This document shows, piece after piece, positions 33,909 to 55,331 of a stretch of 64,000 nt of DNA. Location of the stretch: NCBI GenBank assembly GCA_015039465.1, contig MU130239.1, positions 131,707-195,706 on the forward strand, written 5' to 3'. This DNA comes from Phlegmacium glaucopus (lineage: Eukaryota > Basidiomycota > Agaricomycetes > Agaricales > Cortinariaceae). Below the pieces are notes generated by a model, which made no database searches, had not been told where the DNA came from, and saw only the letters and a program-made list of their open reading frames with translations. A program made the translations under genes and the position numbers. How positions within the stretch are numbered: the stretch's first letter is position 1; the number at the start of each line of letters is the position of its first letter.

Positions 33909-35270
33909 CTATGAGAAAAACAGATGAGCTGAGATTCCCAACATTTTAGGAGTGATGCGACGCATCGAGCGAATCTCGAATCCCACTAAGCTATAGGCGC
34001 GAAAGGACTTACTATGCTGCTGAACAGGTGGCATGGTTAACCGAACAAATCCTTCGTGGTTTGTTGGCGTTGCCTGCATGTATGGCGCTAACACTTGGGC
34101 GTGCTTCCATAGATATATCAGGAAAGCGTCGCTTGCCCATCTACCCTTCGCCTTCATGACGTCGAATGGGACTCCTCTCAAGAGGTACTCAAGCGTGGAC
34201 CCTATTCGTATGCCGTGACCCTGCAGCGGGTCTAAGCCTGCTCTCTTCGCAGCCTGCTGAACGACTTCGAGGAACTTTGCCTTCGTCAAAGGCTTATGAC
34301 ATCCGTTGTCTGAGCGATAGGCAAAGAGCAGCCCCTGCAGAGGCAGACTGTTGATTACTAAATGATTGTCGAAAGCAGCCTGGGGATCGGTGTCCCCGTT
34401 TTGGGCTGACCAGGACATGTCCTCGCCTTTGGGCTGCGTCTTGGTGTGAGGGAGATGAAACACGACCAAGACCAGCAAGTGCCGGTCCGTCTCTGTCCTC
34501 ATGTCTGAAGGTTTTATGTGCTGCTCTGGGTCAAAGGCCTTGAGGGTCTTGACTGTGAATTCTCCCAGATGCGCAGCTGTGAAGAAGGTTGTTGTCAGGC
34601 AAGCAAAGGCTGCCGCATGCAACGGAAAGTCCAAGTTGAGCTGAGCCCTTAGATCGGACATGTATTTTAATGTGAATGGCTTTCTCTTTTTTTTCTTGGA
34701 GGCAAGTGGTGCTGCTTTGTCTGCTGCTTTCAGCAACACTTTGATCTCCCCGTCGTTCATCTCCCATCTAAGCCCATGAAGGATGTGCCAAGCCCTGATC
34801 CCAAATACATAGTTGCGAATCGTAGATCCTGCATACATGCCTGCTATTGTGGCAATGAACGAAGCAATAAGAACAGGGCTGCTTGGGGCCCGTTGGTCCT
34901 CTGCGATAATTTTTTGGTCGCAGAACACATGAAAGACCAGGAGACCTGATCTGTAAGACTCCCTCGTCCCTTCCTCCCAAGCGCCTGCTATGACCCCGGT
35001 TATCTCTGCTAAGTCCTCTACTGTGAGGTTGGTGGGAAGTCCATTGCCGTCCAACGTGTTGCAAGCTGTCGTCGGAACCCATAGCCTGAGACGATCTCTT
35101 GCAAAAACATGAGGTCGAAGAACAGATGGCAGTGGCTTTAAACCCTCCACGTATGGGGCTGGCTTCAGAGGTCTTACTGGACCTATGACCCACGTATCAA
35201 CGCGAGGCGCGCACATAGTCTGAGAACTCTCAATCTTGCGCCGCTTGGCTGCTCTCAAAAGACTGTCGCT
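33909..35270 (-). pseudogene. Tyrosine recombinase of the DIRS-type element
   Basis: The reading frame carries a SAM-like N-terminal core-binding part (ESYRSGLLVFHVFCD, STIRNYVFGIRAWH) and the catalytic domain. Visible catalytic positions are HGIRIGSTLEYL (His-x-x-Arg), GRWAS, and a C-terminal Tyr in YLWKHAQVLAPYMQ. The first catalytic Arg, normally in an ARxGEFT-like motif, is replaced by His (AAHLGEFTV), which would follow from a single CGC-to-CAC change. The frame is open for over 400 codons, but with this key residue lost the enzyme is probably inactive. It lies directly downstream of the RNase H part and is shifted in frame relative to it. Family assignment is from motifs only. Confidence 0.75.
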
Positions 35271-36938
35271 GGGAGATAACTCTGACTGGTTTCTGGACTG
35301 GATTAGGTGCTTTTCCTTCATAAGCAAGACGCTGCTCAGCTGGGCTGAGAGGTGCATTGTAGACTGCGACAAAGGGTGTGAGCCCTTTGGGGATAACGAT
35401 CTCGGGAAGGACATAGCTAGCGGGCCTGTATTCACCTCGTGAGATGCCATCTGCTGGGTTCCTCTTGCTAGCAACGTAGTGAGTGTGGAATGTAAGGTTA
35501 GCTTCTCTCAAAATTGAGTGAATTTCTCTGAAGACGAGGTTGGTCGCGACGTTCCTACTTCGCCCTTTCCACCAACCCTCGACAACGCCTTTGTTGTCCC
35601 CATACACTTTGAAATGGACATTTGCCTCTGAGCTAATGTTGCGGATAGTGAGGACGAGAAAGAGGAACCCAACCGCTTCTGCCCAGCCAATATCTCTCCC
35701 ATCTGCCTTCTACCCAGGTAAGAGCCTCCAAGCTTGCCATTGGCCTCCGATTGTGATGCCAATGCCAACTTCTGAGCTAGCATCTGAGTAAGCTGTGAGG
35801 TCTTTGATGGGAGTGGGACCAGGAATGGGACGCGAGAGGTGATGAGTTTCAAAGAGGGCCCTCCACCAGAGAAGATCGCCTTGCGATTGTTGAGGGGGGG
35901 TACGTGGCATAAAAGGACTGTCATTACACAGTCCCATGAAGGTCTCCAAGCTGGCGAGATATGCTCTTCCTTCAGGAATAACAAGCGTAGCGTGGAGTAA
36001 CCTTTCCATAAAGTTTTTGCGTCTCATCCAGCATGTGTCTGGGAGAATCGCTTGATAGCCAGTCCTGCACGGCTTGGTGATATTTGAGCCTCTTGAGGTC
36101 TGAAATACTAACTGTTTGAGACTCCAAGTTCCAAAGAAAGCCAATGAATGGCACTTCGACTTGGAACTGGATGTCTTTTTCCTTCTCCCAGGGAATACCG
36201 AGTTCATTAGATATAGCATTGATGTCGTCCATGCAATACATGTAAGGAAGATCCAAACTAGATCTAAAAACAAAGTATTAAGCGCTGAAGGCTTGCTACG
36301 ACTCTTTGATGCTACTTACCGATGCGAGCAATTTGAGAGATCTTGCAAGACCACCGAGACATCCTCGTCGAATTCTTCTGGTTTGTCATCCGGCATGGTT
36401 TTTCCTTTGAACCAGTCTACCTCAATCCTGATGCTGACCCCCATTACCATCAATTTCCTCAGCCCACTGCCTATGCTGGAGGTTATAGGCCTGAAGGGAC
36501 GCTCTGAGAATATGAAAGAATACATGGTCGTCGACCCATTTGGAGAGTGGGCTGACACCTTCAGTGCGCATGACTTGTGCTCCCGCATCTGCGATCCTAC
36601 TGTAGGTGCCCGAGCCTGAAGCGAGTCCGAAACAATCACGTGTCGATTCCAAATATGTTGTTACCTTGAAGTCGAATCGCAATGCCTGGCCATTGTGATG
36701 GAAGGAGAGGGACTGTGCGGTAAGCTTTTTTAACGTCTCTGACTGCTGCTTGAGATCCGGGAGGCAGACAAAAAATGAGAAGAGAAATGACGTTAAATGT
36801 ACCCCATGTGGATGGGAAATGATCAGAATTGATGGCACTATTAATCAAGGTGATGCCTGACTGCGTGGGGTTATGGGGGTGTGACAAATTCTGTAGTAAA
36901 TGGAATTTCTCTGGTTTCCCTGGTTTTGGGAGGAGCCT
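35230..36938 (-). pseudogene. Reverse transcriptase-RNase H of the DIRS-type element (broken)
   Basis: Minus-strand frames give, in order: LPKPGKPEKFHLLQNLSHPHN, RDVKKAYRTVPLLPSQWPG, FGLASGSGTYSRIADAGA, KWVDDHVFF (RT catalytic region), MYCMDDINAISNELGIPWEKE, and an RNase H part with TAYSDASSEVGIGI and YGDNKGVVEGWWKGRS. An intron with gtaagt..ttttag borders fits at about 36262-36320. Lesions: frame shifts near 36640, 36460 and 36005, and a TAG near 35710 where the context calls for Trp. The 5' side stops abruptly at 36938, exactly at the end of the nested element; the missing upstream part is the gag frame at 52197. The element cannot make an intact polymerase. Confidence 0.75.
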
Positions 36939-36970
36939 TGTCGGAAATCTCCGGAGTACCTTATAAGGCA
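36939..36970 (+). repeat. Left terminal inverted repeat of the Plavaka-type element
   Basis: Starts TGTCGGAAATCTCCGGA and, after a few bases, holds the palindromic word CCTTATAAGGC. It mirrors the right end at 52166-52196, with a small mismatch or indel region between the two blocks. The preceding CT is the presumed target duplication. Confidence 0.78.
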
Positions 36971-37203
36971 GGGCAACTGATAACGCTATCTGGACCCTTA
37001 TTAGATGTCTGATAATCTCTGGCACAGCCTTGAGATTGCTGGATGACTGATAATCAAGTTGATAAGATTCGTTTGGCATGTGATCCCACCGGCAAGATTA
37101 TGATCAGCGTGTGGATTCAACATCGAACTTCTCCCCTCTTGTCCCCTGACTCCCCTCTTGTCCCCTCTTATCCCCCCACATTTACTGCACCTTTCTTGCA
37201 ATA

Positions 37204-40200
37204 ATGGGTCCCTCACGATCCAAGAAGACTAAAACCTGTGAGATATGCAACAATATTTTTGATGCTCAGGGATTCGTATCGCATGAAAGATCCTGTAGGA
37301 AGAAGCATGGAACAAAGGGAAGCTGATGAGCGCATGTTGAGTTATTGAACAGGGAGAAAGAATTAGGTGAGTTAGTATCTTATGTTCTACCGTCACCATC
37401 ATTTATAAACCCTCAAGAGTCCAATTTCCTCGCGCTTGCTCACAAAAGTGCAGATTGTGATCGCGCCCAATTCGCTGATCCTCGTTCCCAACAGGCTGGT
37501 CCCTCCAATTCATGTATGTCAATTAACTCCTTTTTATTAATAAGATTGTCATCTCCCTTTTCAGTCAATGATCCAGCCGATCTTGAAGCAAATTTACCTT
37601 GGCAGCCCACCTTTCTGGACGAAAACCTTGGTAAGCATCGTTTGGCTTCTGCTGCTGTGTCAATGTCATCCAATAACCCCCATCCAGATGGGGAAATGCT
37701 GCAGCAGATCCCTCCACCTCCCATTCCTGTTCAATACAACATTGACGACATCAAAATTGTTTACCATCCGAATTGCAGAAAGCCAGATAAAGTTTTCCAC
37801 CTCGAAGACTACAACAGCAGCCTTCCACCACCTACTGACATCCCAACAGAGGAAAATCCCTGGAGACCCTTCCAAACGCGCACCGATTTTGACATTGCAG
37901 AGCTAATTCTTGATACACACATGAATAAGGACCAAACCACCGATTTTCTCAAGATTCTTCACAAAATAGCAGGCGATCCAACATGCTTCACCATTGCAAA
38001 TAGGAAAGAACTCAACAAGATGTGGGAGGGTGCGCGTAGTTATCACGCAGCTAGGGTGAGCAATTATCTTCTCTTTCTTGTCCACTGTCGGAAATAATCA
38101 TTCAAGTAATAGTTCAAACATAATGTCGTGTCTGTCCCATACAAAGATGAGGTGCTCAATTTTGACATGTATATGCGGCCGCTGTGGGACTGGTGCACGG
38201 AACTTCTCATGGACCCGAAAATTGTGCAACAATTTCACTGGAACGCCGAGAAGCATTTCAAATACAATGGTGACAAGTTTGAGCGATTCATTGATGAGCC
38301 ATGGACTGCGGATTCATGGTGGGAGCTACAGGTTTATTAAGTTCTTTTGCCTTGTTGTCAATTGATTTACTAATGTCATCCTAACTCTAAGTCGACCCTT
38401 CCTACAGATGGATTTCCATTCTGTATCATTATGTATGCGGACAAGACGAAGCTATCATCATTTGGGACTCAGAAGGGCTACCCTGTTCTTGCCCGCTGTG
38501 CAAATTTACCTATTGAACTGAGGAATGGGGAAGGTGTTGAAGGTGGCCGTCTGGTTGGCTGGTTGCCCGTTGTAAGTATATCCTCGAAATTCTAAAATTG
38601 CTTGCTACTAGTACTAATACAGGTATAAACAGCTAGAGGAAGATTCTGGGGAGACTGGAAAAAAAGGATATGTAGATTTCAAGCGAGTAGTGTGGCACAA
38701 GGCCTTCTATGAAATAGTTGAATCAATGGAGAAATATGCAGAGCTAGGCTTTGCGCTTGACTGCGGTGATGGAATTAGGCGGAAGATATACCTCTTCATT
38801 CTCATTGTTTCAGCTGATTATGAAGAACAGTACGTGACATCATCCATAAACCTCATTGAAGAATTGTCACCTTCACTGACAGATGCACCATTGCTCTTAT
38901 TCGTGGAATCAACAGCAAATTTCCCTGTCCAATATGTCTTGTTCCTGGCAACGAACTCACAAATCTCACTGACAAATTTGCACTGAGAACGACAGAAACA
39001 ATGAAGAAGGTACACGATGAAGCGCAGCTACTCAATGCAACCGAACGTGAACAACTTTTGAAGGATCATGGCTTGCGTAATGTAAAGGTGGTGTTCAATT
39101 TATCATCTGTGTGTAACCATAACTAAAGAGTCCCTCAATTTACTTGAAATCTTAGAATGTGTTTTGGTCGCTGAAAGGCTCTGACATTTACCGGGCCCTA
39201 TCTTGGGATCGGTTGCATGCGTATCATGGTGGACTTTTCTCGGATCACCTCCTGGTTGAGCTCAAGTGTATTGTGGATGCTATGGGAAGACAGTCTCATG
39301 CGAAGATCGACAATCAGTGAGGGCTTGCCATAGATGAGACTAATGCTTATTGCGTACTTAGTATACTTTTTAGGTTGGATCAAATTCCTCGGTGGAAGGA
39401 CCTCAATCACTTTAATTCCCTCAAAAAAAGTGGTGAATATACGGATGGAACCAAATTTGAAGACCTTTCAAAGGTACTATGCACCAATCTCTTTCTATTA
39501 TACCACCATAATATAATTAACAATCCACTAGGTTATTATTTTTGCCTCCCATAATGTTGTTTCAACAACTGACAGAGGACTGCTCTTATTGCGGCTAATG
39601 CGAAGCTACCTTGAGTTGGACATGTATACATCCTTGACTGTACATACTGAGTCCACACTTGCAGCGGGTCGGGCAGAGATTTTGGTCTTCGAGGAATTGC
39701 TCCATGTAAAACATCTCTTCACTCCCACGTATAATGCCCAACACTGATATTGTGTCCAGGAATACGAAGCTGTGAACCCAGACAAAAATTGGAATTTCCC
39801 AAAGGCTCATACCCACAATCATGTTTTTGACGACATTGAAAACAAAGGAGCGACACGGGGTTTCAACACGAAACCTAATGAAAAGGCCCACCGACCATTG
39901 AAGGCTTTTTATAAATTCCATACTAACTTCAAGGACGTTGCGCCTCAGGTATCTATGCGTTTATGTTGATCCTCTGACTTCACCTTCATTATGCTTACAA
40001 TTTCACAGATATTGAGATGTAATGAGACAGATCTCATCGCCATGATTATCCGTACAAAAATTGACCAACTTGACAGTAAAGAAGCAGCTTCACGGGAAGA
40101 GACGCAGAAGGAACAGACAGTGATTGGAACATTGCACGTCTCTCTTGGCTCACCTTTACCCAGAATGACCCTTGACGAACTTGAACAACTCTTTTCTGGT

Positions 40201-40810
40201 GATTCGGCCTTCCATGACTTGCGCAAACGGTTGAACAAGAGATCATCTTCATTGTTTCGTGAATTGATTCGTTTTGAGAGAGTTCAACAGGTTTGCGTCT
40301 GTAATACTTAATATAATAATGATGATACTCACTATTGCTCCTCCTTAGATCATCCCTTATCAACTTCTGCGCGTCTCCTATCAATCCGTGATTGATTGGA
40401 GGCTCACTACTGATCTCCTCCATGCAAACTCTGACTTCCACCATCGTCCTCGCTATGATTTTGTTATTATTCAAGCTAGCAACATCGAAGTTATGTTTGC
40501 TCAAATCCTTTATGTCTTTGGTGTCACCATCAACAATACTGAAGAACATGTTGCCCTTGTCTTACCTTTTGATGAAACACCAGACAGACAACACTGTGAA
40601 AGAGATGAAGCTCTGCGTTTCACTCATGTTCAGGCACGGCACCGATCCAAAGCAACATTAATCAATGTTGAGTCTATTGTTTGAGGGGCAGTTTTGGTGA
40701 AGGATTTCAAAGCTGAGCATGACGATGAGTATATTGTTATGGATGTGGTTGATGCAGATCTTTGGTGGCGGATGAAATTTGTTTCGCTCGCAAGACATGT
40801 TAGGATGTAA
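37204..40810 (+). CDS. Plavaka-family transposase (intron-split, with probable lesions)
   Basis: The start at 37204 opens with a zinc-finger-like KTCEICNNIF..FVSHERSC block (C-x2-C..H-x4-C), usual for the N-terminus of Plavaka transposases. Later exons give DKFERFIDEPWTADSWWELQ, PTDGFPFCIIMYADKTKLSSFGTQKGYP, KKGYVDFKRVVWHKAFYEIV, KFPCPICLVPG, RALSWDRLHAYHGGLFSDH, FNTKPNEKAHRPLKAFYKF and DFVIIQASNIEVMFAQI. These family signatures come in the usual order. A TGA near 40682 interrupts the last part (ESIV/GAVLVKDF) where an Arg codon is likely, and the frame after the zinc finger (about 37324) also needs an intron or is broken. The core is well preserved, so the element is younger than the DIRS host. 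Whether it is still active is open. Confidence 0.78.
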
Positions 40811-42054
40811 ACTATTTAAATTACCCTTGATATTGATTTGATGGGCGACGTAGGATTACTTTTGCATTTTGAGTTAAAACTCTCGCCCATGAGTTCGCCG
40901 CAGGAATGCTCCCCAATTGAATCGCATTGTATAATCTCCGTGTCAAAATCAACAAACCTGAAACTCTGCGATGTAATACAACACGGTCGTTGGTCACACG
41001 ACTATTCTCTCTCCCCTTCTTTCACCACTCTTCACAGCTTTCCATGTTTTAATCAGCCACATCCCCAACTCTGACACCGTCAACTTCACAATCTTCAACC
41101 GCAACAAATGTATGTTCGCGAAGTGATGTATTTTGGTGCGTGATCTCCTTTGCCCTTTAATCAGACACCTTATCCCATTCACTTTCATTAGATCCAATGT
41201 GCCACCAAGACTTGCCTCGTATGTTCACGCCGCAAGTCACTCAAGCCCTTAATACCCCTGTCATTCGCTTAAAATGATTATAATCTGTGCTATTGTTGGT
41301 GAGATACTCAACATATCTATTTTGAATGATCAATCATGATGATATATTAGAAAAACCAAAACAAAAAAAAATTGAAGCTCATCCCGTGTTATCGACCATC
41401 GCAATCTTGATGTCATTGGCCTTGCAATCTAATTTCGATGTCAACCTTTATCATTGTCGCCTCCGGCTTGAGGCGTACATACCACTTAACTTGGACATAA
41501 ACCCCTCTTCATAAATGACATGAACTATGTCACAATCACAAAAAAAAATCAATCACTATTTCCCTTCCCATCTCAATAATGTTTATCATTCCTGAATCCC
41601 GTCTGCGTAGTCTTTCAGACCTTGCCCCGCAAGCACCCATATCAAGCCAAATCTACCCTTATATATCTCTAATCCATCACTGGACAAAAAAACTACTGGA
41701 CGATTTTCCTGGCCGTTACCCATAAAGTGGCAAGTGTTTCCAGCTTTGCATCCTTCCATGTTATAAAGCTTCAGGCTATTCCCCCATGATACGATGAAAG
41801 GCGATGAAACTTTGTTTTTTCATGCCTTTTCTATTTCTCTGCTTTTGCAGTTTTTTATGCTTTCATTTTGATGTTGGATAGTTCCGGGAGATGGAGATGA
41901 CGATCTGTCTGCAGAGACTGCAGGTTGATATTGTATGGATTGTTCCTTTTTGAGAGTGGGATGGATGGAACTTGGAGACGAAGTTTTTTAATTTGATGTT
42001 GTACGGATAATTTCAACAGTTACTGATTATTATTATTTTTGCGTAGAATGGTGC
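40811..42054. other. Non-coding stretch after the transposase, inside the element
   Basis: About 1.2 kb with scattered short frames only (40838-41074, 41326-41514). Parts read like ordinary fungal intergenic or intronic DNA with A-runs (41362, 41544). No domain is recognised. Confidence 0.4.
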
Positions 42055-43838
42055 TCTTCTCATTCCTGACCGAGTGGCTACATCATCAACATCATCTTCC
42101 TCTTCATCTCATCACCACCATACCACCATCTGGATCATTGTCAAAATCAAAATGAATTCCGACAATCTAAACATGCTATGCACGACCAAAATGCGTTGTC
42201 GTCCAACCATCATCATCAACAACACCATCATCACTGCCAGCATCAACACCAACCCCATCCTCATTCCCATCCAAAACCGCAACTGCAGCCGCATCATCAT
42301 CATCTCCAACAACAGATGATTTCAGTTGGTGATAATCTAGGTCGACCAGAGTTTTCTTCTGCGTTTGGGTTATTGCCACTTGAGCATCCTAATGTTATGG
42401 CTGGGATATCGACGAATGGAACGCCTTTTTTTTGATGATCCTGGTCAAGCTCATAATCAACCTCGTAGTATGACACGTCTGGGTCCATGACAGTCGATTT
42501 GGATATTGTCCAACTTGGTGACGCTGCGGATATGGATACCCCAATGCCTTTGAAACGAGATTCAGGACAGTTACAACTTCTTTCACTTGAAGGAAGTGGT
42601 TCTAGTTCTGGTCAGAGATTTTCAATGTCAACTTCATCGACTACTGCGGGAACGGTTGTAGAGAATGGATCTCCGCCCTTCTAAAAAGAGGGATGCGAAA
42701 GAGTTGAGGGAGTTTTGGAAGCAGTATATGCGTATGGGATGTTGTCATCCGGTGGGAGTGATGGCATGGCGCCGAATAGTGGGATCGGGAATAAGTCTAC
42801 TACAAATGTGACCATACCTGGACCTGCTGGATATTGTCGACCGAGAGTGGCTTCTCTACCTACTGTGAAAACTCCGGTTATGGAGAAGGATAGAGATCCA
42901 TTTTAATCTCGGATTTGCGAATGTGATGTATCAGAATCAACTACTTCAACCATCTACTTCGACCTCAACCTCAACTTCAACTGATACTTCCAACCCGGAC
43001 CTACGAAGATCATCGCATGAGGTACCTGGAATGGGAATGGATATGAGTATGAGTATGAGTATAGGCGATACGGAAGACTTGAGATCGTACGAAGTTGCTG
43101 TGATGGCTAGGAAAGCACCTACGACTTTAAACTTGAAACTGAGGAGACCGATGAGAGGGAGAGGGAGGCATGGAGGAGGCGTACCGACTTTGGGAACTAG
43201 TGACAAGTCGAGGGACAAAGGAAGTGCTGGTTCTAGGAATAGTCCTGGTGGTGGTGGTGGTGATACCATTACCTCATCGGATTGTTCGTCGTCTTCGTTG
43301 CTTGTGAATGCTTTTGGAACTAGTCGACATCAACCTTCTCATTCGTGCGATAAAACTCTACTCGCTTCTGGAAGTGGGCGGTTAAATCCATCTGCTACTT
43401 TCGGGAGATTACCATTTCCTCCTGGTGGTAATAGGAGTGGGTTCGATCCAATCCAAAAGGAAGAAAGTTGGAGTCCTTCATTATCCTCGCCTGTTTCATC
43501 ATCCGATTTTGAAGCAGAAGCTGGTGATCAATCTGATATGGGAGGACCTTCCCCGATGATAGGGGGGAACTTAGATACAACAACTGTCGTCACACCAAAC
43601 AAGGACACCTTCCTTCGCAACTACTCAAGTCTGACCATATGTCTCATGGTAACAACAGTCAACCACGCGAACACTCAATTACTTCTTCCTTGGCTCAAAC
43701 ACCGAGACTGTGGCTAATGCGCCGCACGAAAACCCTACCAATATGGAATATACATTTCTGAACGAGGACGCTACCGCCACTGAGGGCAAGTCCACCATCT
43801 CTGAAAGCCCCCTCAAAAAGAGGAGGTCTTTGCTGTGA
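42055..43838 (+). pseudogene. Remnant of a Ser/His/Gln-rich basidiomycete regulatory-type protein
   Basis: Plus-strand frames give a Ser-run, a His/Gln/Pro-rich stretch (42178-42320), a RDAKELREFWKQYMR segment near 42690 in a frame that breaks soon after, YCRPRVASLPTVKTP, DLRSYEVAVMARKAPTTLNLKL near 43080-43140, and a Ser-rich end with ESPLKKRRS before the stop at 43836-43838. I recall these blocks from conserved basidiomycete proteins of unknown, possibly regulatory function, but cannot name the family. The blocks lie in different frames with stops between them, not all explainable by introns, so it looks like a decayed copy. It sits between the Plavaka transposase and an inverted-repeat element. 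Confidence 0.5.
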
Positions 43839-43840
43839 TC

Positions 43841-44147
43841 CACCAGATCTGATCAGATCTGAGCAGATTTGGCAGGCATTCTGAGCAGATCTGCTCAGAT
43901 GGTCAGATCTGAGCAGAATTGCAACTATATACCTCCCTAACCTTAATAAAACCCTAACCAAACCTTAACCCAAACCTTAACCCAAACCTTAACCAAACCT
44001 TAACCAAACCTTAACCAAACCTTAACAGAAGTAGCTAGTAGGTCTCTATTTTCTCAGATCCACTTGGATCCACTCAGAATCTGAGCAGATCTGAGCAGAT
44101 CTGGTCAGATATAACAGTTCTGATCAGATCTGATCAGATCTGGTGGG
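43841..44147. mobile_element. Foldback/MITE-like inverted-repeat element
   Basis: The left end ccaccagatctgatcagatc and the right end gatcagatctgatcagatctggtgg are reverse complements. Inward, both arms are built from the word GATCTGA/GAGCAGATCTG repeated many times. The centre (43934-44024) is a repeat of an AACCTTAACC-type word. No coding frame is present. This is the layout of a small non-autonomous foldback element. Flanking duplication was not clear. Confidence 0.6.
43934..44024. repeat. AACCTTAACC tandem repeat (telomere-like word)
   Basis: About eight copies of accttaacc(c/a)aa units of 10-12 bp. The word resembles degenerate CCCTAA telomere repeat, but the common unit here is CCTTAACCAAA, so it is not a true telomere array. 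It lies in the middle of the foldback element. Confidence 0.7.
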
Positions 44148-44599
44148 GGACAGAAAAGTACTGAAAAAGAGGAAGAAACGGAACAAATAGTAGCTCTATT
44201 GGTACGTTTCATATATCGAGCGCACACCTCTTCAACTTGAAAATTTGTCTATATTCAATTAGACAGAGATATCGATCTATAGCTTTATGTCATTTAATCC
44301 GGTGCATTTCCGTCTACAGCCGAAACAAAGGAAAAGCGCCAGGTTGGTGGCATCGATGAAAGCCTAAATACGTCATTATGACATCATTGGCAGAATGCGT
44401 TCCATCTACACCCGAGGCAACCGAGAACGCCCCTTCTTCATACAACTCTACCTCTGCGATTAGGAACACCAAGCTTGATACCCCGAGCGAGCGTCGGTGC
44501 TTATTGGAAAAATGAAGCTGGTTATTGATAATAAGACTGTGGATGTTGTCGAGACATCCCTATGAGAAATCTCTACCTGAAGCTATTGTGGTAGGCGAT

Positions 44600-45055
44600 A
44601 ATGGATGCAGGGAAGGATGATTGGTGGACCCGGTGGAACCACTTATTTGGAACTTCAAGTCAAGAATCGTTCTAACAAAAAGGTGATTCCTCCCCCCCTC
44701 TTCCCTCCTTCCTTTGTTATAAAGCTGATAATAATTGTATACTAGAACTCTAGCTTAACTCTAATGCTTACACGCACGCTTTACTTGCCTGGTCAACAAC
44801 AACCACAACAACCAGCTACAGTTCAGATCTCGGACACTCTAACAACTGTTCCATTCCGCGGTCCAGAGTATATTATCCCCCCGGGTGCGGAAGGTGTCGC
44901 CAATCCGGTCTTTGATGTTCCTAAACTTGCCTGGGGGGTTCAAGGCGGCACCCTAGACAGAGAAAGAGAAGAAGATGGAGGACAACCTAGGCAAACCGAG
45001 AGCCTTTTTAAGATCCGGTGTGAAGCCGAAGTCGTCAAATTAGTCGTTTCATTTT
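44600..45055 (+). pseudogene. Arrestin-like protein fragment
   Basis: Joined across an intron at about 44682-44745, the plus strand reads TYLELQVKNRSNKK/NSSLTL and then TRTLYLPG, DTLTTVPFRGPEYIIPPG, VANPVFDVPK and ESLFKIRCEAEV. These blocks resemble the arrestin-fold region of fungal arrestin-like proteins, which recruit ubiquitin ligases to membrane cargo. Neither the front nor the rest of a full protein is present. The next sequence belongs to an unrelated transcription factor. I read it as a captured piece; naming is from memory of the family and moderately sure. Confidence 0.5.
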
Positions 45056-45144
45056 TTCTTCAAAATACTTTACTGATCACATCTTTCTTTGTTCTTACAG
45101 GAGGCAATCACAAAGTCAGTAAAGCTTCTATTTCTTACTTACCA

Positions 45145-46740
45145 ATACTAACCTTTTTTTATCAAGGCTGCGATGCATGTAGAGCTCGGAAAGTTCGTTG
45201 CGCCAGAGAAAACCCTGACGACCCACAGCAAACGTGCAAACACTGTATAACCCTCGGAATCCTATGTACTTATGATTACCAACCCAAAAAGCGTGGTCCG
45301 CCGAATCTGTGAAATAAATTATTCCCCTCTTCAGACAAGAACCTGATACCATATATACAGATACCTTCGACGCCTCCAGGAGGCGGCAGCGGCAGCGGCG
45401 GCCACTCATCCACAATCAGATAGCGCTTCCGATAATGATATTGAATCACCAATCTCCTCTCTTGCAAACCCATCCCAAAATAGTATTGCGTCGGCAAACA
45501 TAACCTTAAAGAGTCCGCCATCTTTCCTTGAACCCACAATAAACCAATTGCCTCCCATTTCAACTATCCCGATTCCTCCATCACGATATCCGATTGCAGC
45601 GGACACATACCACAGCCATTACACTCCCCAAAGTACTGTCCAATCCAGCTCAAAAACAAATACCGCTGGCAATGGCATACGCCGTTCGAGTTCACACCCC
45701 CGACCAAAGGTCGAGGACCAATCCTATATTTCATCCCCGTCGGATAATAACTCTTGTCCTCTTTACAATTGGTCTTACAAGCAACGTCAATTGCTACCCA
45801 TTCCAGCTCCTACAACAGTTCCGCCGCTTTCTTATTATTACAGGCCTCGGTGACTTGAAGAGATCGCCCCGAAAGATACTATCTCTCTTATTATTGCTTT
45901 ATTTTTTGACTTTGTCTATCCGCTTACACCCTGCATTCATAAACCTTCTTTCATGGCCGACTTGCATTCACGACGGGAGGAGCGTGATCCTCTCTTCTTT
46001 GCCCTAGTGATGTCAACTTTGGCCTCAACGTTGGTCCAAGTTCCTCGGTCCTACTTACCGATGGACCGACCTGTCGTTCGAAAACTGGCACAGGTGAGTT
46101 TGTTCGTGCGCTTTCAACGTTTATATCACTCAATCTATGGTCAGACTGCTCACGAAGCAAGCCGACACATTACCATTGCTTCTTACGATCCACCAACATC
46201 AATGCATGTTGTAATTCGATACTTGTCAGTCGCCCTGTCTCCATCGAACCCTAAACCTCATCTTTTTCTTCATAGTGATTGTATCTATCATTTTTGTGAG
46301 GGCCATGACGCTACACAACATGCTGCATTCGGCGAGGCTGCGCACATTGCCGTGACCCTTCGTTTGCATGAAGAAGCCCCATATGAAGGCCTTGATCCAA
46401 TTGAGTGCGAAGTGAGGAAACGAATATTTTGGCTCCTCTTTGGGTATGGACAATTTCACTGTCTTCTCAACTGTGGCAAATGTTTGTATTATCCTAGTGG
46501 ACAAATCCATGTCCAGGTTTGTTCACTAAATTCTCTACCTTTGAACCAGGTCTTGATGATGATTACTTTTCAATAGCAAAGATATCATCCTCCAAATCCC
46601 TGCATGCCCTTCCGCCGACAATAACATCTCCGATGGACAACTTTGTTACTCTAGTTCTAAACCCTTCTTCCCCCGCTCCCAACGCTGTGCTATCCCCCCA
46701 TCCTCAACTTCATTCACTCGAGATCCTGTACTCAGTTCTC
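45145..46740 (+). pseudogene. Zn2Cys6 fungal transcription factor, front half only
   Basis: A canonical binuclear zinc cluster is seen at 45170-45265: GCDACRARKVRC, a spacer, TCKHC, then LGILC (C-x2-C-x6-C..C-x2-C-x6-C). After a small intron the linker RRLQEAAAAAA..HPQSDSASDND follows, then a Ser/Pro-rich spacer. The start of the fungal-specific middle domain is present (FVYPLTPCIHKPSF, RDPLFFALVMSTLASTLVQVP, TAHEASRHITIASYDPP, DCIYHFCEGHDATQHAAFGEA, VRKRIFWLLFG, then DKSMS). Shortly after, at about 46740, the protein ends and the sequence becomes an aldo-keto reductase. The second half of the factor is missing and no promoter or first exon is evident. The piece is relatively well preserved. 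Confidence 0.72.
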
Positions 46741-47442
46741 TGACTATGTCGACCTCTTCTTGATCCACACCCCGGAGCAAGCCAGAAAAGAGGCAAATTT
46801 CAGTCAGTTGTGGGAGGACATGGAGAAAATCAAACAGGAAGGCTTGGCCAAATCGATCGGTGTCTCCAACTTCATGGTCGAGGACCTCAAGATTATCCTA
46901 GAAACTGCCAAGGTGCTCCCTTCTGTAAATAAGGTAGGAGCTGGTTTTTACTCGATCTTGATGAGGTTTCTTTTATTTACTCCTGATTCCTTTCCACCAG
47001 ATCGAATTCCATCCATATGTTTGGGAAAGCTGCAGAGCCGATTACTAAACTCTGTCAGGAGCATGGCATCGTTATAGCATCCTACGGTGGCCTGACACCC
47101 ATCGTACGCGTTCAAGATGGCCCCCTCAATCCCGTTCTTGCATCTATTCGTGAGCGACTCGAGAAGACTCGTGGTCACACAGTCACGACCGGACAAGTAT
47201 TGACCAAGTGGATCCTGGCTAAGAACGCAGTCGTCGTTACGTGAGCAAACCTCCATCTTCCATTGCTCTTATTTGGTTGACCTGTTGAATTGCAGCACAA
47301 CATCGAAAGTGTCCCGTATACAAGAGTTTTTGGACGTTCAAAACGTCCCTGATTTAACTGCAGAAGAAGTCAAGGCCATCGAAGCGGCAGGGGCCAAGTT
47401 GCATAAGAGGGCATATCTTCGCCACCTCTTCGGCGAGTAAAT
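46738..47442 (+). pseudogene. Aldo-keto reductase, back half only, frame-shifted
   Basis: The piece starts abruptly at YVDLFLIH, the family block with the catalytic His, and continues GLAKSIGVSNFMVEDL, then after an intron IEFHPYVWE. A frame shift of about one base near 47030 follows before AEPITKLCQEHGIVIASYGGL, VLTKWILAKNAVVVT and, after another intron, TTSKVSRIQEFLDVQNVPDL to the end HLFGE. The N-terminal half with catalytic Asp, Tyr and Lys is absent. It differs clearly from the intact reductase at 17516-18979, so it is not a copy of that gene. The direct join to the transcription-factor piece is unusual. Confidence 0.75.
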
Positions 47443-47751
47443 TATGAACCAATCATTGCATATCGTCATTATCCAAGCAGAGCTTGTAAACGAGAAGTAA
47501 ATGTACGTGTGCCATCAACTTCGCTATACAATTATTTAACTATGTCAATCCCAATAGACCATTGCCTTTATGCAACATTGAACAACTTTGATTTGGAAGG
47601 GGTCAAAGCCTACGGAGCAAACATGAACTGCAGCGACAATACATCATTTAACAATTAGTCATTGCAAGAAACAAGAGCGTTCAAAGTCTAGGTGTTGAAT
47701 CTTCTAGATCTTTTGCTATGAAGCGGGCTCTAGAAAGTGCCTATATTGCCC

Positions 47752-48240
47752 CGATTTTCTGCACTATAGCGTGGCTACTACTGGCAGATTTGAATTACGG
47801 TGGGAGTGAGCCAGAGTCAACAACCAACAACAATCTCTTCTTCTACTGTCTTAGCGAGTTCTCCATCAACTAGTACTTTCGATGCCCACGCAAATGCTGT
47901 AGAAGGAGGCGTAGTTGGTGGGGTCCTGGGCCTTTTCATACTTTGTGGATTGCTCTATGGTTACTTCCAATGGAAACAGCGCCTTTCTCGCAACAGGGAG
48001 ACTCTATCATCTCGAACTGATACGGATGATTCTGCCTTGAGCAAAGTCGAAGAAGAACATTCCATGACACAAGTCCGAGCCGCCAATGGCATCATAACAC
48101 CAGGTTCGGCTGTACCCTCCTTTGTGAGTCCCGACTTTGAAGATACGGTCAATCCTTTCCAACGTATATATTATTCACCCTTCCAGGTCTATTCTCTATC
48201 GACCCGGCCAGATCTACTTGTAATTCATTCCTGGACATAA
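47752..48240 (+). pseudogene. Single-pass membrane protein fragment (Ser/Thr-rich stalk plus one TM segment)
   Basis: The open frame shows a Ser/Thr-rich stretch (TTISSSTVLASSPSTSTF), one clear hydrophobic segment (GGVVGGVLGLFILCGLLYGYF), then a basic, polar cytosolic tail with SRTDTDDS. This is the common layout of fungal cell-surface sensor-like proteins. No ATG with a signal peptide in the same frame is seen, so the front is missing or in an exon I cannot place. It lies within the transposon, after the reductase piece. Family naming is not possible. Confidence 0.45.
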
Positions 48241-48481
48241 CTTATTGTTGGTCTGAGCTAGAAGGATATACAATTATACACAATTTTCAACATATACTTG
48301 TACGCGGTGTATGTGGTGTTGTCACTGATCAAGTTAATCACGTGATGACAATCGTTAGGCTTTCTCCATTGCCTCCTTCCCTTCTCTTTGACACTCTTCT
48401 ACTCGTAAGCATACATCCTTGTTCTCCTATCCCACTCCAGCTCTCTAACGCCTAGCAAAAGCACTTCATATTACAGCACAG

Positions 48482-51437
48482 ATGGGGTCACTACGCCGTA
48501 CAGAGACCTTAGTCCAGCTTCCAGAGACGAATACCACATCAGCATCTGCCAACCCTGCTAACAATACAACCGCTCTACCCTACCCTACTCTCCAATATTA
48601 CAAAGAACAGCAACTACGACAGAACGGCCTTGTTAACCATGCTACTGTGGAATCCATCACTATCCTGGACCATAATATGCGGCCAAACAACTTAGTCTCA
48701 CAGAACGGAAGGCATCAACGTCAATCATCTACAGCTCGACCCTCATCCGCTCACAAGGTGATATTTAGCACCATCAAGCGTGTACCTCCCCCCAAAGCAC
48801 CATCACAGGTGATATTGCCATCTGTTGCTTCCCCCATCACCATCACCCATACACACCGGACATCTTCGCCTCTCTCTCCTTTGCGCACTGTCATCCCAGG
48901 TCGTCCCATTTTCCCTCATTCAAAACCAGAGCCTGATCTTTATCATGTTGCCATCAAAACTCACATGCGTTCCAGTCCTGTAGGTCAGAAAATCCTCCAT
49001 ATGGGTCCAAGGCTGGCCTTGTCCATCATCGATGTCACCAAGGAGCTGGAGATATTTTGGCTGATCAGGGGTGGGAGAGGGACCGAGACAATGATGTCGT
49101 GATATCAGATTCTACCCTCAATGTGTTCAGCATCATTTATCACCGACACCCTGCTAGTCTTAATATCATCCTTCTTCAACTGTTCTTTTGTCAACAATTA
49201 AAAGTCATGTCAAGGAAAATAGGGACAGACAAAGATCAGCTACAAGTATCGGCTACAAGTACGGTATTCAATTATTAGGTGGATCTATCATGAAATGCAA
49301 GGTATTTGGTTGTGCTTTTTTTATGTCTTATGACACTTATTTGAGTTCTCTTTATGTCTTTACATCTCCTTGAGGACAGTGACGTCCATTAACATAGGTT
49401 TATTATTAAAGGACGTAATCGCTTGTGGCTTGGAATATACACCATACGAGCCGCTCATTTCAGAAGTTTGTTTACACGTGTTCTCGCCCTTTTATTATAA
49501 GTCTGACAACTCATGCAAGGCTATTGTTGTGGAACGCCCTCTGCTGAACATTACCCGCTTCTCAATATGCCTGCACCTGTGCCCACCCATCCCCGTGCCT
49601 TTTCTGTCGTCGTAGATGGCAGCTCATCAGATGATTCCGATACATCAAAATTTCCAGCCGCCCTTACCTACCCACGAGGTCATGACCGCAAACAGACGAT
49701 AATTTTGGAAAAGGTATGTGACACGAAGCTGTTGTGAATGCTCCAGCTGATCATACTTGTCTGTTAATAGGCACTCAAAGAAGCGCAGGCCAGGAGCATA
49801 GCACTTTCTCAGGAGATCAAAGCTCTGAAGGCGGCCAATGTAGACCTTCAGATGCGTCTTGCAAAGTCCCATAAGCCACAATGCTCCAATGAAAGTGATC
49901 CTGAGTCGAGTGGTGGCAAGGCCAATGCTGTTGATGCTGCGAAGCTTGGTAAAGAAATTTGCAAGCTTGGGAAGCGGCATGTTATTTTGTATTCGGTTTT
50001 CCTCACCCATGATGCGTTTGGATCCAGTAAGCCTTCATTTGGCTCCGACGACCCCATACGATATGCCAATGTAGACAACATTGAGCTTGGTCCCACAGCT
50101 GAATTATATGCAAGTATTCCTGCCAAATTCCACCAGTATCTATCGACTATATCTTCAGTTGCTGACGAGGTAAGCATCCTCGTGCATCTCAGGTTTATCC
50201 TTGCTAATTTTACATATGATATACAGTTTATAAAAGGGATGAACTCAGAGCGTTCAACTGCTTTACATATCATTCGCGGTGTAGCGGTAGTAATGTTTGA
50301 CCATGAGGACCTGCCCTCTGAATGCTTCACCCAACGCTCATTCTCTCGGAGCAGCCTTGATCGAGTTCAATTCTTACTTGGCACCACTGTTGACAGCAAT
50401 GGTGAAACCGCCAATCCTGACTTTCCTCCCATTGTCTTCGAGGACAACAACCCTGCCATGGCTAGAGGAGTATTTCGAAATGATGTATTGTTCAAGGTCT
50501 GTATCGGCATATCTACCTCTCGAGATACGGCTTACTAGAATTTACTTTGATAGATCGCGCGCGTGGTTATCTATGGAAAACAAGCCCTGGTCTTGAAACA
50601 CACAGATGGCCGGCTCAACTTCCCTTCACTGAAGAGCAACAGTCCCTTCTCTCGAAAGGATTGTCCACTACAAACGACTGCAGGGCTCATTGCTTTTGCT
50701 GCCATTGCAGTAAGTGTTCGCTTTAATTTTGTTGCTCTTTTCGGCTCTTACCTTTTCATGAGGTCCGTTTCATTCTTTCGGACGACGAAACATGGCCTTC
50801 CACTGGAGTTGGCCCCAAGAGCTCCATTAACTACGGAGATACTTTCAACACCTACAAGCACTTTCTTATCGTTGGTCACCACAAGGAAGAGTCTCGACGC
50901 TCTATTGAGCTGTTATTCCAGCGGTGGGATGCTGAAGTGTTTCCAAAGAAAGCTGGGGTCGCATCTACCCTCGGGACGCATGACATGGATGCTGAGGTAG
51001 TGGAGGAAAGGCGTAGTGCTGAATTTGCCGATTTCTTCAACCGGATGCAGCTCGAGGACAGTGATGCTAATCCTGACCCACTGTCTGATGCGGACTCTAA
51101 TATTTACATGGATGAAGAAATTGATCCTCGTTCTCACCATCCAGGATGTGCTCAAGTTATACCACCGGTTCCTATTATCTCTACATCAAGTGTCGTCTCA
51201 ATTGTCCATGCTGTCACCATTGCACAAGATGTCATGTCACAGGCTGTCACAGGGCCAAAACCGCGTCACAAACCCAACGTATCAGCTGCCAAGAAGGCAC
51301 TCAAAATCCCTCAAGTCGCTCTCAGTAGCAAGGTTACTATAGAAGATGGTTTGGTTGCTGTTGATGAGGTTGATGCTGGTGGGAAACCTGCTGGAAGAGC
51401 CACTCGGAACCGAAAGGGCAAGTCTCAAGCCAAATGA
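48482..51437 (+). CDS. DUF6698-like protein (basidiomycete, function unknown)
   Basis: The first exon starts MGSLRRTETLVQL at 48482 and is Ser/Pro/Thr-rich. Later exons hold a coiled-coil-like stretch (LKEAQARSIALSQEIKALKAANVDLQMRL) and the conserved domain: KLGKEICKLGKRHVILYSVFL, IPAKFHQYLSTIS, FIKGMNSERSTALHIIRG, KIARVVIYGKQAL, TTAGLIAFAAIAVRFIL, SINYGDTFNTYKHFL and ELLFQRWDAEVFPK. A basic tail (RATRNRKGKSQAK) ends at 51437. I match the domain pattern to DUF6698, widespread in agaricomycetes, with no known activity. The stretch 49037-49110 needs an intron or frame shift. It may be the transposon's own second gene or another captured one. Confidence 0.6.
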
Positions 51438-51658
51438 TTCAAATGATTCAACCGTTATGTTGTAGCAGATGGAGTCTTGAAGAGGAGAACTATTTTATTA
51501 GACATGTCAAATACATAATGATTGTGTTCTGACAAATCGGAGTGACAAACAACCTTGGTGCTGCTTAAATCGTTTATCATGAGGCAGATATTATTCATTA
51601 TGCTCTGGAGAATGACCTGCCAGTGTTATAGATTAACCCAGGTGGCCCTGCTAATATA

Positions 51659-51745
51659 TGCCTCTGTGGCCTAGTGGTAAGTATCGTCAAGATTCCTAGG
51701 TAGTAATATAATTAAATAGTGTCACTGGTTCGAATCCCCAACATT
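51659..51745 (+). repeat. tRNA-derived relic (Arg-CCT-like) or SINE head
   Basis: An A-box-like tggcctagtggt (51667-51678) and a B-box-like ggttcgaatcc (51727-51737) match RNA polymerase III internal promoters. The middle, with ttcctag, recalls a CCT anticodon loop. The acceptor and T stems do not pair, and the A-B distance is about 15 bp too long. A tail of short agtata repeats follows (51760-51776). So this is not a working tRNA gene. Confidence 0.4.
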
Positions 51746-51886
51746 GTAATAAATAAATTGTAGTATAGTATAGTATAACCCTAGTAAATGTAGTGTAATT
51801 AACCACCCTTACTTAATAATTATAATGACTTAACTATAACCTCCTAATAAGTATAATAACAAATGTATTAATAATACGACTACTGG

Positions 51887-52053
51887 CTGATAAGATTTGA
51901 GAAGTGGCTGATAAGATCAATCGTCCCTGATAAGGTAAGATTTCTTTATTATCAACTCAACCGGCAGATAAGAGCAAGCCCCTCTGATAAGATTTGAGAA
52001 GTGGCTGATAAGATCAATCTTCCCTGATAAGGTAAGATTTCTTTATTATCAAC
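51887..52053. repeat. Direct repeat pair in the right sub-terminal region
   Basis: A block of about 70 bp starting ctgataagatttgagaag occurs at about 51888 and again at about 51984 (97 bp apart). It differs at only a few positions, such as cgtccc versus cttccc. Each copy contains three tgataag words. Confidence 0.8.
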
Positions 52054-52165
52054 TCGATCAATTATTAGACATGATAAGATAAAACAAGGCAATCCACCTG
52101 ATTGTAAGGGGAACTGCCACCTTATGAGGCCTTATAATCGGCTCACCGGATTACTGGCCTTATCA

Positions 52166-52196
52166 GCCTTATAAGGCAATCCGGAGATTTCCGACA
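52166..52196 (-). repeat. Right terminal inverted repeat of the Plavaka-type element
   Basis: Read on the minus strand it begins TGTCGGAAATCTCCGGA and continues TTGCCTTATAAGGC, the mirror image of the left end at 36939. The following CT (52197-52198) repeats the CT before the left end. Confidence 0.78.
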
Positions 52197-52952
52197 CTAA
52201 GTGGGGATGTCTGAAACGGGCCAAGCAATTGCTCTGCTTCAAATTGTGAAACTGGGCCCAGATATCTGCCCCTCTTGAATTCAATATTGATAATTTCATC
52301 AAACTTATCACTGAGCTTTGTGATGGAAGGTTTATTGAGTGGAACGTAAGTCCTTGTGATCCTCGGTATCCCCGCATTGAAGCCATGCTTGATTCCATAT
52401 GGAATGTCATGATATTTATCAGCAATCCCTGATTTTTCCAACAACCTTTCCCAAGCCTCGTGCTTGTACGGAGACCCTGAATTAAGCTTTTTGTGCTCGA
52501 GAGCACTTCTGAGCTCCGTGAGACGCTTTTCCGCATCCTGAGCACTTGTGTTTGGAATCGTGCGTAGTGGTGGAACATCCATTTGGCATCTGCCAGTCGG
52601 AGCAGAGGATGGTTCTGGCTAGGTTGACGAGTCGACCCTTGTCCTCCTTTCTGCAGTGAGCTGGAGAGCCGTCCCACAGGGTTTGGACCGCGCAGGCCCA
52701 GACATTGTGTCAATGACGACCGAGGCAAATGGTGCAGGCGGACAAGGTCGCCGAAGAGCCTGCACCTGAGTGAAAAGACTGAGTGGACTTCGAAAAGTGC
52801 CTTCTCTTCAAGTCCTGGGGTACTACCCTGACCGGCAATTTTTGCCTAGGTTCATGAGTCCTCCTAACGGGTCTGTAACTCGCACTCGGATCTGACGTTG
52901 GCGAGACAGACCTACCCCTTTTGTACCTTCCTCGGTGGTTTGGACTAGCCAT
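52197..52952 (-). pseudogene. DIRS-type gag/pol front part, cut by the Plavaka-type insertion
   Basis: Starting from MASPNHRGRYKRGRS at 52952, the minus strand gives a basic Ser/Arg-rich region, then a CTICLGRHRH piece that looks like a partial zinc knuckle. After a frame change near 52580 it reads SPYKHEAWERLLEKSG, IPRITRTYVPLNKPSI and RGRYLGPVSQFEAEQLLGPF. These blocks lie directly upstream of RT in basidiomycete DIRS elements. The frame stops being DIRS exactly at 52197. Its continuation is at 36938, where the RT begins in the same phase. The frame change near 52580 suggests decay before or after insertion. Confidence 0.65.
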
Positions 52953-52989
52953 AGACGCTCTGGAGAGCTGCTCCTCTAGCCTGGTGTGA

Positions 52990-55331
52990 CGTGAAAAAAG
53001 ATGATCAAGTGCAATAATTAAGTACAAAGAATAAGTAATAAAATTTTCGGGACAAAGCAGAGCCGAAAATTGAAAACCAAGAGATCCGAAATTACATTTT
53101 TTATCACGAAAGATAGAGCCGACAGGCCAAAAGGGAGAGAGAAAATACAATAAAGTAGAACAGGGTGGTTATGACATAAATGTAAGACATGATGCAAATT
53201 TTTGTGATGAAGCCAGAGGCGGTAGAAGCGGGCGAATATAAATATCCGAGGCTGTGATGCAACAGAGGCAGTCCCAAAGAAGGGTATAAGTTATGATGCA
53301 ATGAAGCAGAAGATGATGCAGCGAGTTGTCAAGGACGAGATGAAGGGAGAGACGGCAAGAGAAATTTGTTAGTACTTATGAAACAAATTCTTAATGACTA
53401 ACGAAACTCACCATTGATATGACTCAAAATTGCATATGCATGGATTTTGCAAATTTTGTCTATTATTTCAGCATTATTAAATCAATAAGTGCACCCAACT
53501 GTTAAATACAACTGATAATTAAATAACAGAATTGGAGTTGTATGCCCTACAACTGCTAATTACTGTTTCTGTTGACTCAAACACTTAGTAGTTTTTGAAT
53601 ATGGTCAAATGACTATTTATTCAATGCTACAAAATAATATAGTCAAGAGTTAAAACCATAAACTCCATGATAACTCTATATTATACAGAAACAGTACCTA
53701 AACACAGGGGGCAAAGTCACACAAAGCATGCCGATGTTTTAGACCGTGGGAGAATCACTCGGAGTTCCAAGCAGGTGCTCATACGAGACCAAACAGTTGA
53801 GATTTATACCGTGGGAAAGTTTCGGAACATTCCGAAAATCGTCGGAAATAAATGATAGACATATGCAGTACATTTGGGAGTTGGAAACTCCGGCGTCAAC
53901 TCCGGCGATCACAATTTCTGCCGTAGTCACGTAAAACATCACAAGCCAGAGTTTACCTCAGATCTGTTTGGAACGCGAAGGCACTCTACTTAATCCTAAG
54001 CCAGGTATATGAAATAAATAAAGAACTCTCTATCGTCCTTAAAGAAATTGATTTCCAAGATTGACATTGGGTTGTTCAATGAGAAAGCCACAGTGATTTT
54101 AACTATTTAAATATTTATTTATTGAGCAGTGGAAAATAATATTTGAATATGTATCGCGGCTGACACACTAACACAGTGACTTCGACTAACACTGCAGGTT
54201 GTGATGGAGATATTTATAGATAATGCAAGTTAATTTATTTATTTTGAGCGTTTGCTTGGGTAAAAGGGCCTCAGGACATAAAAATTATTACTTCAATTAT
54301 GGGCCATGTGTTTCTTGAAAAAATGCTCATGCCAGTGTTATGCTGTGAAGGCGGGCAGGTCACAAGACTACGGCGGAAATTGCCGCCATAGTGATCGCCG
54401 TAGTTTTGATGCCGTAGTTTCCAACTCACGAATGCCCTCGACATATGAAACCAATATAACTCTGGGCTCGGAGTTGATGTGGGAGTGATTAATTAATCAC
54501 AAACCCAGAGTAGCCCAGAGTATCTATCAATCAATCAATTAATCTACCTGTCTCTGACAGATGTATCATTTGTTTCAAAGAGATTGTATAAGGACTTTTC
54601 TAGCTATTTCCCCTTTTGTAAATATTTGTATGTATATAAAGGCAACCAGAACTGTAGTTACAGTAGATTTTGATATCTCTTGCTTCCCCCCCACATTTTC
54701 TATTGAGTACAGCTCTGAACCAGAGTTGGAAATTAGCAAGTGGGTCAAGGAAAAATAGATTATTGAATTCTCAGAGGTGTACAAGAGTTGTTGAAATATT
54801 ATTTGATTTATCCAAGTCAATTATATTTGAGTACGAGTTTTTTTGTGACTTTGTCACAGTGTCACAGAGAACTTGTGTGTGTTGTTGAGGTGTTTAAGTT
54901 GGTGTTTTGTTAGTCACAGCAAGGGTACAAGAGTCCCTTAGTGTGTGCAATTTATTGTGTTAGTCACAGCAAGGGTACAGGAGTCCCTTAGTGTGTGCAA
55001 TTTTGGTTGTTTAAGTCACATTAGGCCTTGGACTTGTCTGTGCAAAATATATTGTTGAAAATCAATCTAGAAGATTTAAGGAACTTCTTGCTAGATTGTT
55101 GGTGCAAACCATAAATTGCAAAACACACTCAAAAAGTTTGATCACACTTTAAAATTGATCCAAATCATTAGTTTTCTGTGTTGTATAAGTTGAAGTGAAT
55201 TTCTTAATTTTGGAACGGTTAAACTTTCCAGGAAACCTGAATTCATCTTTTACACAGATTTGATTGAGTATAAGATTGAGTAGAGATTTTATATCTCCAA
55301 AAGTCCTATTTTCTCTATCATCCCTGAGTAG
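52990..55331. other. AT-rich, gene-free insert-like stretch with LTR-like parts
   Basis: About 2.3 kb with no supported gene, separating two parts of the DIRS element that would be expected to lie close together. Around 54470-54760 it has LTR-like features: a tatataaagg TATA-type box near 54635, short T/C-rich runs, and purine-rich sequence after. A possible short inverted word (gtgaaa at 52990, tttcac at 55334) lies at its borders. It may be a decayed non-autonomous element, but I could not define its ends. Confidence 0.4.
54909..55004. repeat. Two tandem copies of a 50-bp unit
   Basis: The sequence gttagtcacagcaagggtac, then a(a/g)gagtcccttagtgtgtgcaattt, occurs at 54909 and again at 54959, with one clear difference (acaag versus acagg). 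It lies in the AT-rich insert-like stretch. Confidence 0.8.

Follow-up and report, generated by a model that had tools for sequence, protein, structure and literature searches.

How do pieces of several unlike host genes come to lie between the inverted ends of a single DNA transposon? This question is raised by a stretch of 64,000 nucleotides from Phlegmacium glaucopus (C82:131707-195706 of a 60.5-Mb assembly in 259 contigs, which are C-numbered here), called the window throughout, in which an element of 15.26 kb combines a Plavaka transposase gene with a row of partial genes. An initial annotation of the window had described this element as a giant Plavaka-type transposon, which seemed to have captured host gene pieces in the manner of Pack-type elements. 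In our reading, a PlavakaA-type transposon took up DNA fragments of at least four host loci and the loaded element then jumped to the place where it is found today; to this we assign a probability of roughly 0.7.

Element boundaries and the empty target site

The strongest single result, which is independent of the idea put forward in the initial annotation, is that the element inserted into a retroelement and duplicated 2 bp, CT, on insertion. The corresponding empty site is preserved at C247:102612-103011, where both flanks stand joined with a single CT and 381 of 400 bases are identical, without any gap. Longer flank matches on C247 (at least 1700 bp at 95.5% and 1235 bp at 94.4%) overlap on this locus by exactly 2 bases. 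Joining the flanks of the window with one CT yields a single open frame on the minus strand, of which the flanks are the two halves; the host of the insertion is thus a retroelement-like frame (35243-36938 and 52197-53412 of the window), which is 94-96% identical to its unbroken relative on C247. A gapless empty site with a 2-base overlap means that the outer boundaries mark one transposition event. The matching inverted ends and the CT duplication reported in the initial annotation therefore both stand, the former as terminal inverted repeats (TIRs) of 31 nt with 94% complementarity (36939-36969 and 52166-52196, 15.26 kb between the outer ends), the latter as a target-site duplication (TSD) present on both sides.

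The motif CTGATAA, counted on both strands, occurs three times in the leftmost 302 bp of the element (36939-37240) and seven times in the rightmost 347 bp (51850-52196), in comparison to one occurrence in the interior and eight in the remaining window. A 17-nt end pattern, searched with up to three mismatches, gave two sites in the window, both exact, where 0.20 would be expected by chance, and these same two are the only exact sites in the whole assembly. With up to two mismatches, 12 sites were found in the assembly and 18 for a reversed control pattern; because the control gives more sites, loose matches to this end are meaningless when taken alone. Alignable relics are present at two of the ten inexact sites, the other eight lying outside the comparison: a left end on C105 (85% over 565 bp, followed by different sequence) and a right end on C202 (77% over 860 bp, with 95% over the last 44 bp).

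The Plavaka transposase that had been noticed at the left end is equally borne out. Its hand-spliced translation matches PF18759 over positions 3-322 of 325 with an E-value of 1.4e-48 (X being placed at three stops), and single exons match as well; the in-frame stops comprise two codons at 37324-37329 and one at 40682-40684. According to the available text of PMC12730594, PlavakaA families of the Agaricomycotina have TGT..ACA ends, a 2-bp TSD and a Plavaka transposase. The present element has a PF18759 transposase, the termini TGTCGG...CCGACA and the TSD CT, features that would fit a PlavakaA-type cut-and-paste transposon. At least 183 PF18759 matches exist in this assembly (123 of 351 candidates scored), and in Marasmius oreades KDZ and Plavaka groups are stated to dominate the DNA elements (PMC8290104, available part).

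Gene pieces with counterparts elsewhere in the genome

Counterparts of the cargo were sought by a DNA search of the assembly with the whole element (39 of 430 candidates scored, which makes the counts lower bounds), by narrower searches and by local alignment to fetched loci, while Pfam scans covered 17 open reading frames (ORFs) of the window, a subset of those present. The pieces with counterparts all lie within 4.7 kb (44480-49134), inside the TIRs, and their host sources are distributed over at least four loci of different contigs (C238, C242, C220 and C62). One of them, the back part of an aldo-keto reductase (AKR) gene, is identical to its C242 counterpart at 98.5% over 1065 bp. It is joined, after a loss of 1.62 kb, to the tail of the next C242 gene (95.1%), by appearance a single-pass membrane protein with no Pfam family above the cut-off in our scans. 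The front of a Zn2Cys6 gene matches C238 at 97.4% over 1478 bp, and where the piece in the element has a stop, the exon on C238 stays open across 415 codons. The front half of a Zn2Cys6 factor (PF00172, PF04082) and the back half of an AKR (PF00248) were correctly recognised in the initial annotation, and the membrane-protein tail named there has its counterpart as well. In the element, the AKR introns are retained with the same splice sites as on C242, and since these are kept, the templates of capture were DNA; introns and non-coding flanks were carried along, which supports the earlier view of capture at the DNA level. A tRNA scan and a comparison of the AKR piece with plasmid records gave nothing informative.

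The arrestin-like piece has counterparts too, the best copy among the matches listed being C220:61902-62480 at 86%, but the arrestin label is weak, Arrestin_C reaching only E 0.0027 on the hand-spliced C220 copy, below the cut-off. In its second part, about 450 bp of C220 sequence are missing after 46600. The gene family is repeated, with eight of the 14 listed copies on C220. We also observed that the gene is part of a block which recurs, with matches reaching about 3.7 kb; its longest matches to C220:58500-68400 range from 84 to 92%, and it is possibly a local gene array or an unrecognised repeat. A further piece, absent from the initial annotation, has its relatives on C62 and C251. Of the sequence retrieved around these two places, no more than about 1 kb is shared, at 95%, and the source family is perhaps another dispersed gene piece; no Pfam name was found for the piece in the element.

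Of the five unlike host-gene pieces proposed earlier, four have counterparts, while the fifth, discussed below, has none beyond 61 bp; the C62-family piece comes in addition. The search for parental genes that had been advised, with alignment to each piece, led to C238, C242, C220 and C62 at divergences between 1.4 and 12.3%. All pieces lie on the plus strand, as had been stated, this being judged for the unnamed pieces from their longest open frames. If five of them are counted as independent (the unnamed piece, arrestin-like, Zn2Cys6, C242 and C62), all face the direction of the transposase, for which the chance is 1 in 32; we regard this shared orientation as suggestive only.

Joins between the pieces and a possible route of capture

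The register of the joins was read by eye on ungapped views, in which small gaps shift some rows. All joins are abrupt: TGACTAT is shared at the join between the arrestin-like and AKR pieces, and 0 to about 4 bases are shared at the others. The Zn2Cys6 piece is nested in the arrestin-like piece, where it replaces 13 bp (positions 3982-3994 of C220:58500-68400), the arrestin-like sequence resuming 14 bases on (from 3981 to 3995). This nesting suggests that capture took more than one step, and we read from it that the arrestin-like piece was present before the Zn2Cys6 insertion; a template switch back and forth within one event would be an alternative. We considered whether the 1.62-kb stretch missing between the two C242 pieces is an insertion into that locus and rejected this, since the joins, inspected by eye, are without duplication and the stretch contains open frames that resemble the beginning of the next gene.

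Repair synthesis with template switching, or filler capture, would be expected to produce the nesting, the several source contigs, the small losses and the scarcity of shared bases. A core of about 7 kb, consisting of the transposase gene, a DUF6698-like gene and the ends, may have grown by uptake of fragments, DNA copies of pieces from at least four host loci being present in it today. Such uptake probably occurred when breaks or excision gaps within the element were repaired: DNA synthesis that copies and switches between ectopic chromosomal templates, together with end joining, would leave sharp joins with 0-7 shared bases, small losses and intact introns; the loaded element, known from one copy, would then have moved to its present site. 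For plants another route has been proposed, the fusion of adjacent elements with enclosure of the intervening DNA (PMC13317346, available part). Each such event should yield a single chromosomal stretch, and the route would have to be repeated to produce the arrangement seen here.

Remaining components of the element

For the piece that had been called regulatory-type, this name could not be upheld: DNA and protein searches of the 60.5-Mb assembly found no counterpart except 61 bp on C123, no Pfam match was worth naming and solved structures offered no lead. The parent may have been lost or may lie in an assembly gap, or the piece may stem from elsewhere. Inside it sits a miniature inverted-repeat transposable element (MITE) without CpG, which has many genome copies, the best at 99%, and whose middle holds a ACCTTAACC-type repeat. 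With its 9-bp duplication and its many copies, the MITE was rejected as a captured host piece; it was inserted after capture or was already in the source.

Neither is the DUF6698-like gene, listed among the captured pieces in the initial annotation, a clear capture. The decayed C202 relic (C202:308860-310091) carries the tail of this gene beside the same right end, at 77%, which speaks against a fresh capture; the gene has probably been resident in this Plavaka lineage for a long time. Of 15 DUF6698 loci, none is closer than 20 kb to a listed Plavaka match (the nearest, on C30, about 23 kb away; judged by eye and a weak negative), a faint indication that the gene is no evident general partner of Plavaka. 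Its exon stretch 49771-50538 has one distant protein match, C195:308774-309382, at 26% and with five stops.

Table 1 Features of the element in window coordinates
Feature	Position	Strand	Basis
TSD, left copy, CT	36937..36938	.	flank reading and empty site
Left TIR (TGTCGG...)	36939..36969	+	31 nt, 94% complementary to 52166-52196; relic at C105:280289
Left subterminal region with CTGATAA motifs	36970..37203	+	motif count
Plavaka transposase gene, 12 exons, 989 codons	37204..40809	+	hand-made splice model; PF18759
Unnamed gene piece ('regulatory-type'), frames broken, contains MITE, left limit approximate	40821..44479	+	61 bp on C123 only
MITE, 340 bp	43824..44163	.	9-bp duplication AAAAAGAGG at 43815-43823 and 44164-44172
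Arrestin-like piece, first part	44480..45043	+	C220:61902-62480, 86%
Zn2Cys6 / Fungal_trans gene front, upstream DNA and intron	45040..46513	+	C238:70530-72007; PF00172, PF04082
Arrestin-like piece, second part (46514-46600 and 46601-46752)	46514..46752	+	C220 alignment
Aldo-keto reductase gene, back part, introns and 3' flank	46741..47805	+	C242:711438-712501; PF00248
Tail of next C242 gene	47806..48226	+	C242:714125-714555
Stretch without assigned source, 165 bp	48227..48391	.	no match in element search (39 of 430 scored) or local alignments
Unnamed gene family piece	48392..49134	+	C62:306139-306878, 84%; C251:22873-23624, 82%
DUF6698-like gene	49771..51437	+	PF20414, E 6.8e-8 on hand-spliced exons
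Right subterminal region (CTGATAA motifs, two 72-bp direct repeats)	51850..52165	-	motif count, repeats
Right TIR (...CCGACA)	52166..52196	-	complementarity with left TIR
TSD, right copy, CT	52197..52198	.	flank reading and empty site

Divergence and direction of transfer

Gap-free divergence from the counterparts amounts to 1.4% for the AKR, 2.3% for the Zn2Cys6 and 2.6% for the membrane-gene piece, 7.8% for the arrestin-like and 12.3% for the C62 piece, and to 0.6% for the MITE. The copies in the element are the broken ones, as seen in the stop of the Zn2Cys6 piece at a place where the C238 exon is open. CpG losses, given as element/counterpart, are more numerous on the element side for each of the five gene pieces compared (AKR 7/1, membrane gene 4/1, C62 17/5, arrestin-like 6/1, Zn2Cys6 6/3; MITE 0/0).

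Several observations weigh against a simple capture from the loci identified, followed by a jump. For the Zn2Cys6 (13/13) and arrestin-like pieces (17/14), transitions towards C/G and those away from it, taken as a whole, are about equally frequent, so that decay of the element copy is not visible in these two. The nearest counterparts of the arrestin-like and C62 pieces are 7.8 and 12.3% off, the 'regulatory' piece has none and 165 bp are sourceless. One loaded copy has been found; its insertion with TSD is established, whereas we infer that it jumped with its cargo already inside. In the assembly we recognised no full-length relative that has these ends but lacks the cargo, eight loose end matches standing outside the comparison. 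Another point, an unexpected one, concerns the coding differences, which are mostly synonymous, although decay of a captured copy alone predicts otherwise. In the coding parts of the Zn2Cys6, AKR and membrane-gene pieces, compared with C238 and C242, 29 of 47 differences were synonymous in a first set and, with the remaining exons added, 32 of 52, in comparison to 16.7 expected under decay alone (none of 20,000 simulations reached 32). Leaving out CpG losses, 21 of 36 are synonymous where 10.7 are expected (P 0.00025). For the set of 47 differences, a mixture of half decay and half constrained divergence (omega 0.1) reaches the excess with P 0.025, and with a quarter decay P is 0.39.

The synonymous excess suggests that much of the divergence accumulated when both copies still functioned as genes. 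The genes on C238 and C242 may therefore not be the donors themselves but related to them, perhaps as alleles from another haplotype. On the other hand, only eight sites differ in the non-coding parts of the same pieces, at a rate like the non-synonymous one (Fisher 0.64) and below the synonymous rate (Fisher 0.0009, CpG losses left out). The excess of synonymous changes conflicts with this low non-coding divergence, the two could not be reconciled, and 52 differences are few.

Alternative explanations

The core could also have landed first, the gene pieces being added later at the present site as filler DNA in break repair. The single loaded copy agrees with this, and the unequal divergence of the pieces together with their nested order suggests several events. 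Yet the sources on at least four contigs all ended up inside the TIRs, whereas the retroelement flanks compared (1.7 and 1.2 kb) took up none; on this argument, circumstantial as it is, we consider filling in place unlikely.

The synonymous excess (32 of 52 vs 16.7 expected) and the one piece without counterpart in the assembly would be accounted for if the element had been loaded in another lineage, be it a haplotype, a population or a sister species, and had arrived by crossing or horizontal transfer, with C238 and C242 harbouring relatives of the donors. Three points make such an origin unlikely: the half-decay mixture still has P 0.025, no more than a mild rejection of ordinary capture, the low non-coding divergence (8 sites) is left unexplained by a diverged donor, and a duplicate lost within the same lineage would serve equally well. 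Going further, the loaded element might come from another fungal lineage and have brought along a piece of a gene otherwise lacking here, which would make Plavaka a carrier of chimeric cargo between lineages, a speculation we find quite improbable.

It is highly improbable that part of the cargo was brought by a nested Helitron instead of repair. Helitrons with extra genes have been described for Pleurotus (PMC4289320, available part), but Pfam scans of 17 window ORFs gave no Helitron helicase (no tool-based search for Helitron ends was made), and the joins look shared-base or blunt with lost bases. The element itself, with TIRs and a TSD, is no Helitron, since Helitrons lack both. An assembly chimera, or ordinary host genes lying by chance between two inverted repeats, might be suspected from the mosaic interior, but this can practically be dismissed: the empty site is gapless with an exact 2-bp duplication, 1.4 to 2.6% divergence from C238 and C242 excludes misplaced reads of those loci, the window contains no N, and on C238 and C242 the exons used for comparison are open and belong to longer genes. 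Uptake of host fragments by a PlavakaA-type transposon before its last jump remains our preferred reading.

Comparison with known systems

The comparisons below follow the available parts of the papers cited. With PlavakaA the element shares the TGT..ACA ends, the 2-bp TSD and the Plavaka transposase (PMC12730594). That a Plavaka carries an extra gene is no novelty, as PlavakaB families are described with a TET/JBP dioxygenase, there a whole gene; host gene fragments are not mentioned in the available part of that study (PMC12730594). A patchwork of gene fragments from several sources in a Plavaka was not found in the literature searched, whose scope excluded most subscription papers, nor was the combination of CACTA with Basidiomycota and transduplication. 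The statement of the initial annotation that gene capture is not known for fungal Plavaka holds, in the literature searched, for such a patchwork, but precedents exist in fungal hAT and Tc1/Mariner elements. In Pyrenophora tritici-repentis, a hAT element with a histone H3-like gene and a Tc1/Mariner element with an ORF were called the first fungal transduplication in 2013 (PMC3538342), and a report of 2019 describes a fungal transposon that amplified a housekeeping gene, that of histone H3 (PMC6710886). The Pyrenophora elements are likewise fungal TIR transposons with a transposase and further ORFs, yet they contain one or two extra ORFs and exist in many near-identical copies, whereas here at least four loci contributed to a single copy found. 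HELPO1 Helitrons of Pleurotus ostreatus resemble our element as basidiomycete DNA transposons with extra genes; they differ in being rolling-circle elements without TSD, the intact ones being free of P. ostreatus gene fragments (PMC4289320).

Plant Pack-MULEs are TIR elements packed with gene fragments as well (PMC6431247), but belong to another superfamily, and those of the first report measure up to 7 kb (Jiang 2004, cited in PMC6431247). In the Pack-CACTA or Pack-TYPE elements of plants, DNA fragments of coding genes likewise lie between TIRs (PMC8903248, PMC13317346). The Pack-type reading of the initial annotation is justified insofar as host gene fragments with counterparts on C238, C242, C220 and C62 are enclosed by the TIRs. 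It has to be restricted insofar as Pack-TYPE elements are defined as non-autonomous, without a transposase of their own (PMC8903248), whereas the present element of 15.26 kb keeps its transposase gene, albeit with three in-frame stops, and insofar as the DUF6698-like gene and the MITE are not host captures. CACTA/EnSpm and Plavaka have been placed in the same CMCT clade (PMC12730594). If Plavaka elements take up host gene pieces as plant CACTA elements do, the shuffling of genes by TIR transposons would be more widespread in this clade and would be a source of chimeric genes, as well as of false gene models, in mushroom-forming fungi, to which the abundance of Plavaka in this assembly adds weight; with the counterparts located and the empty site at hand, the capture becomes testable base by base.

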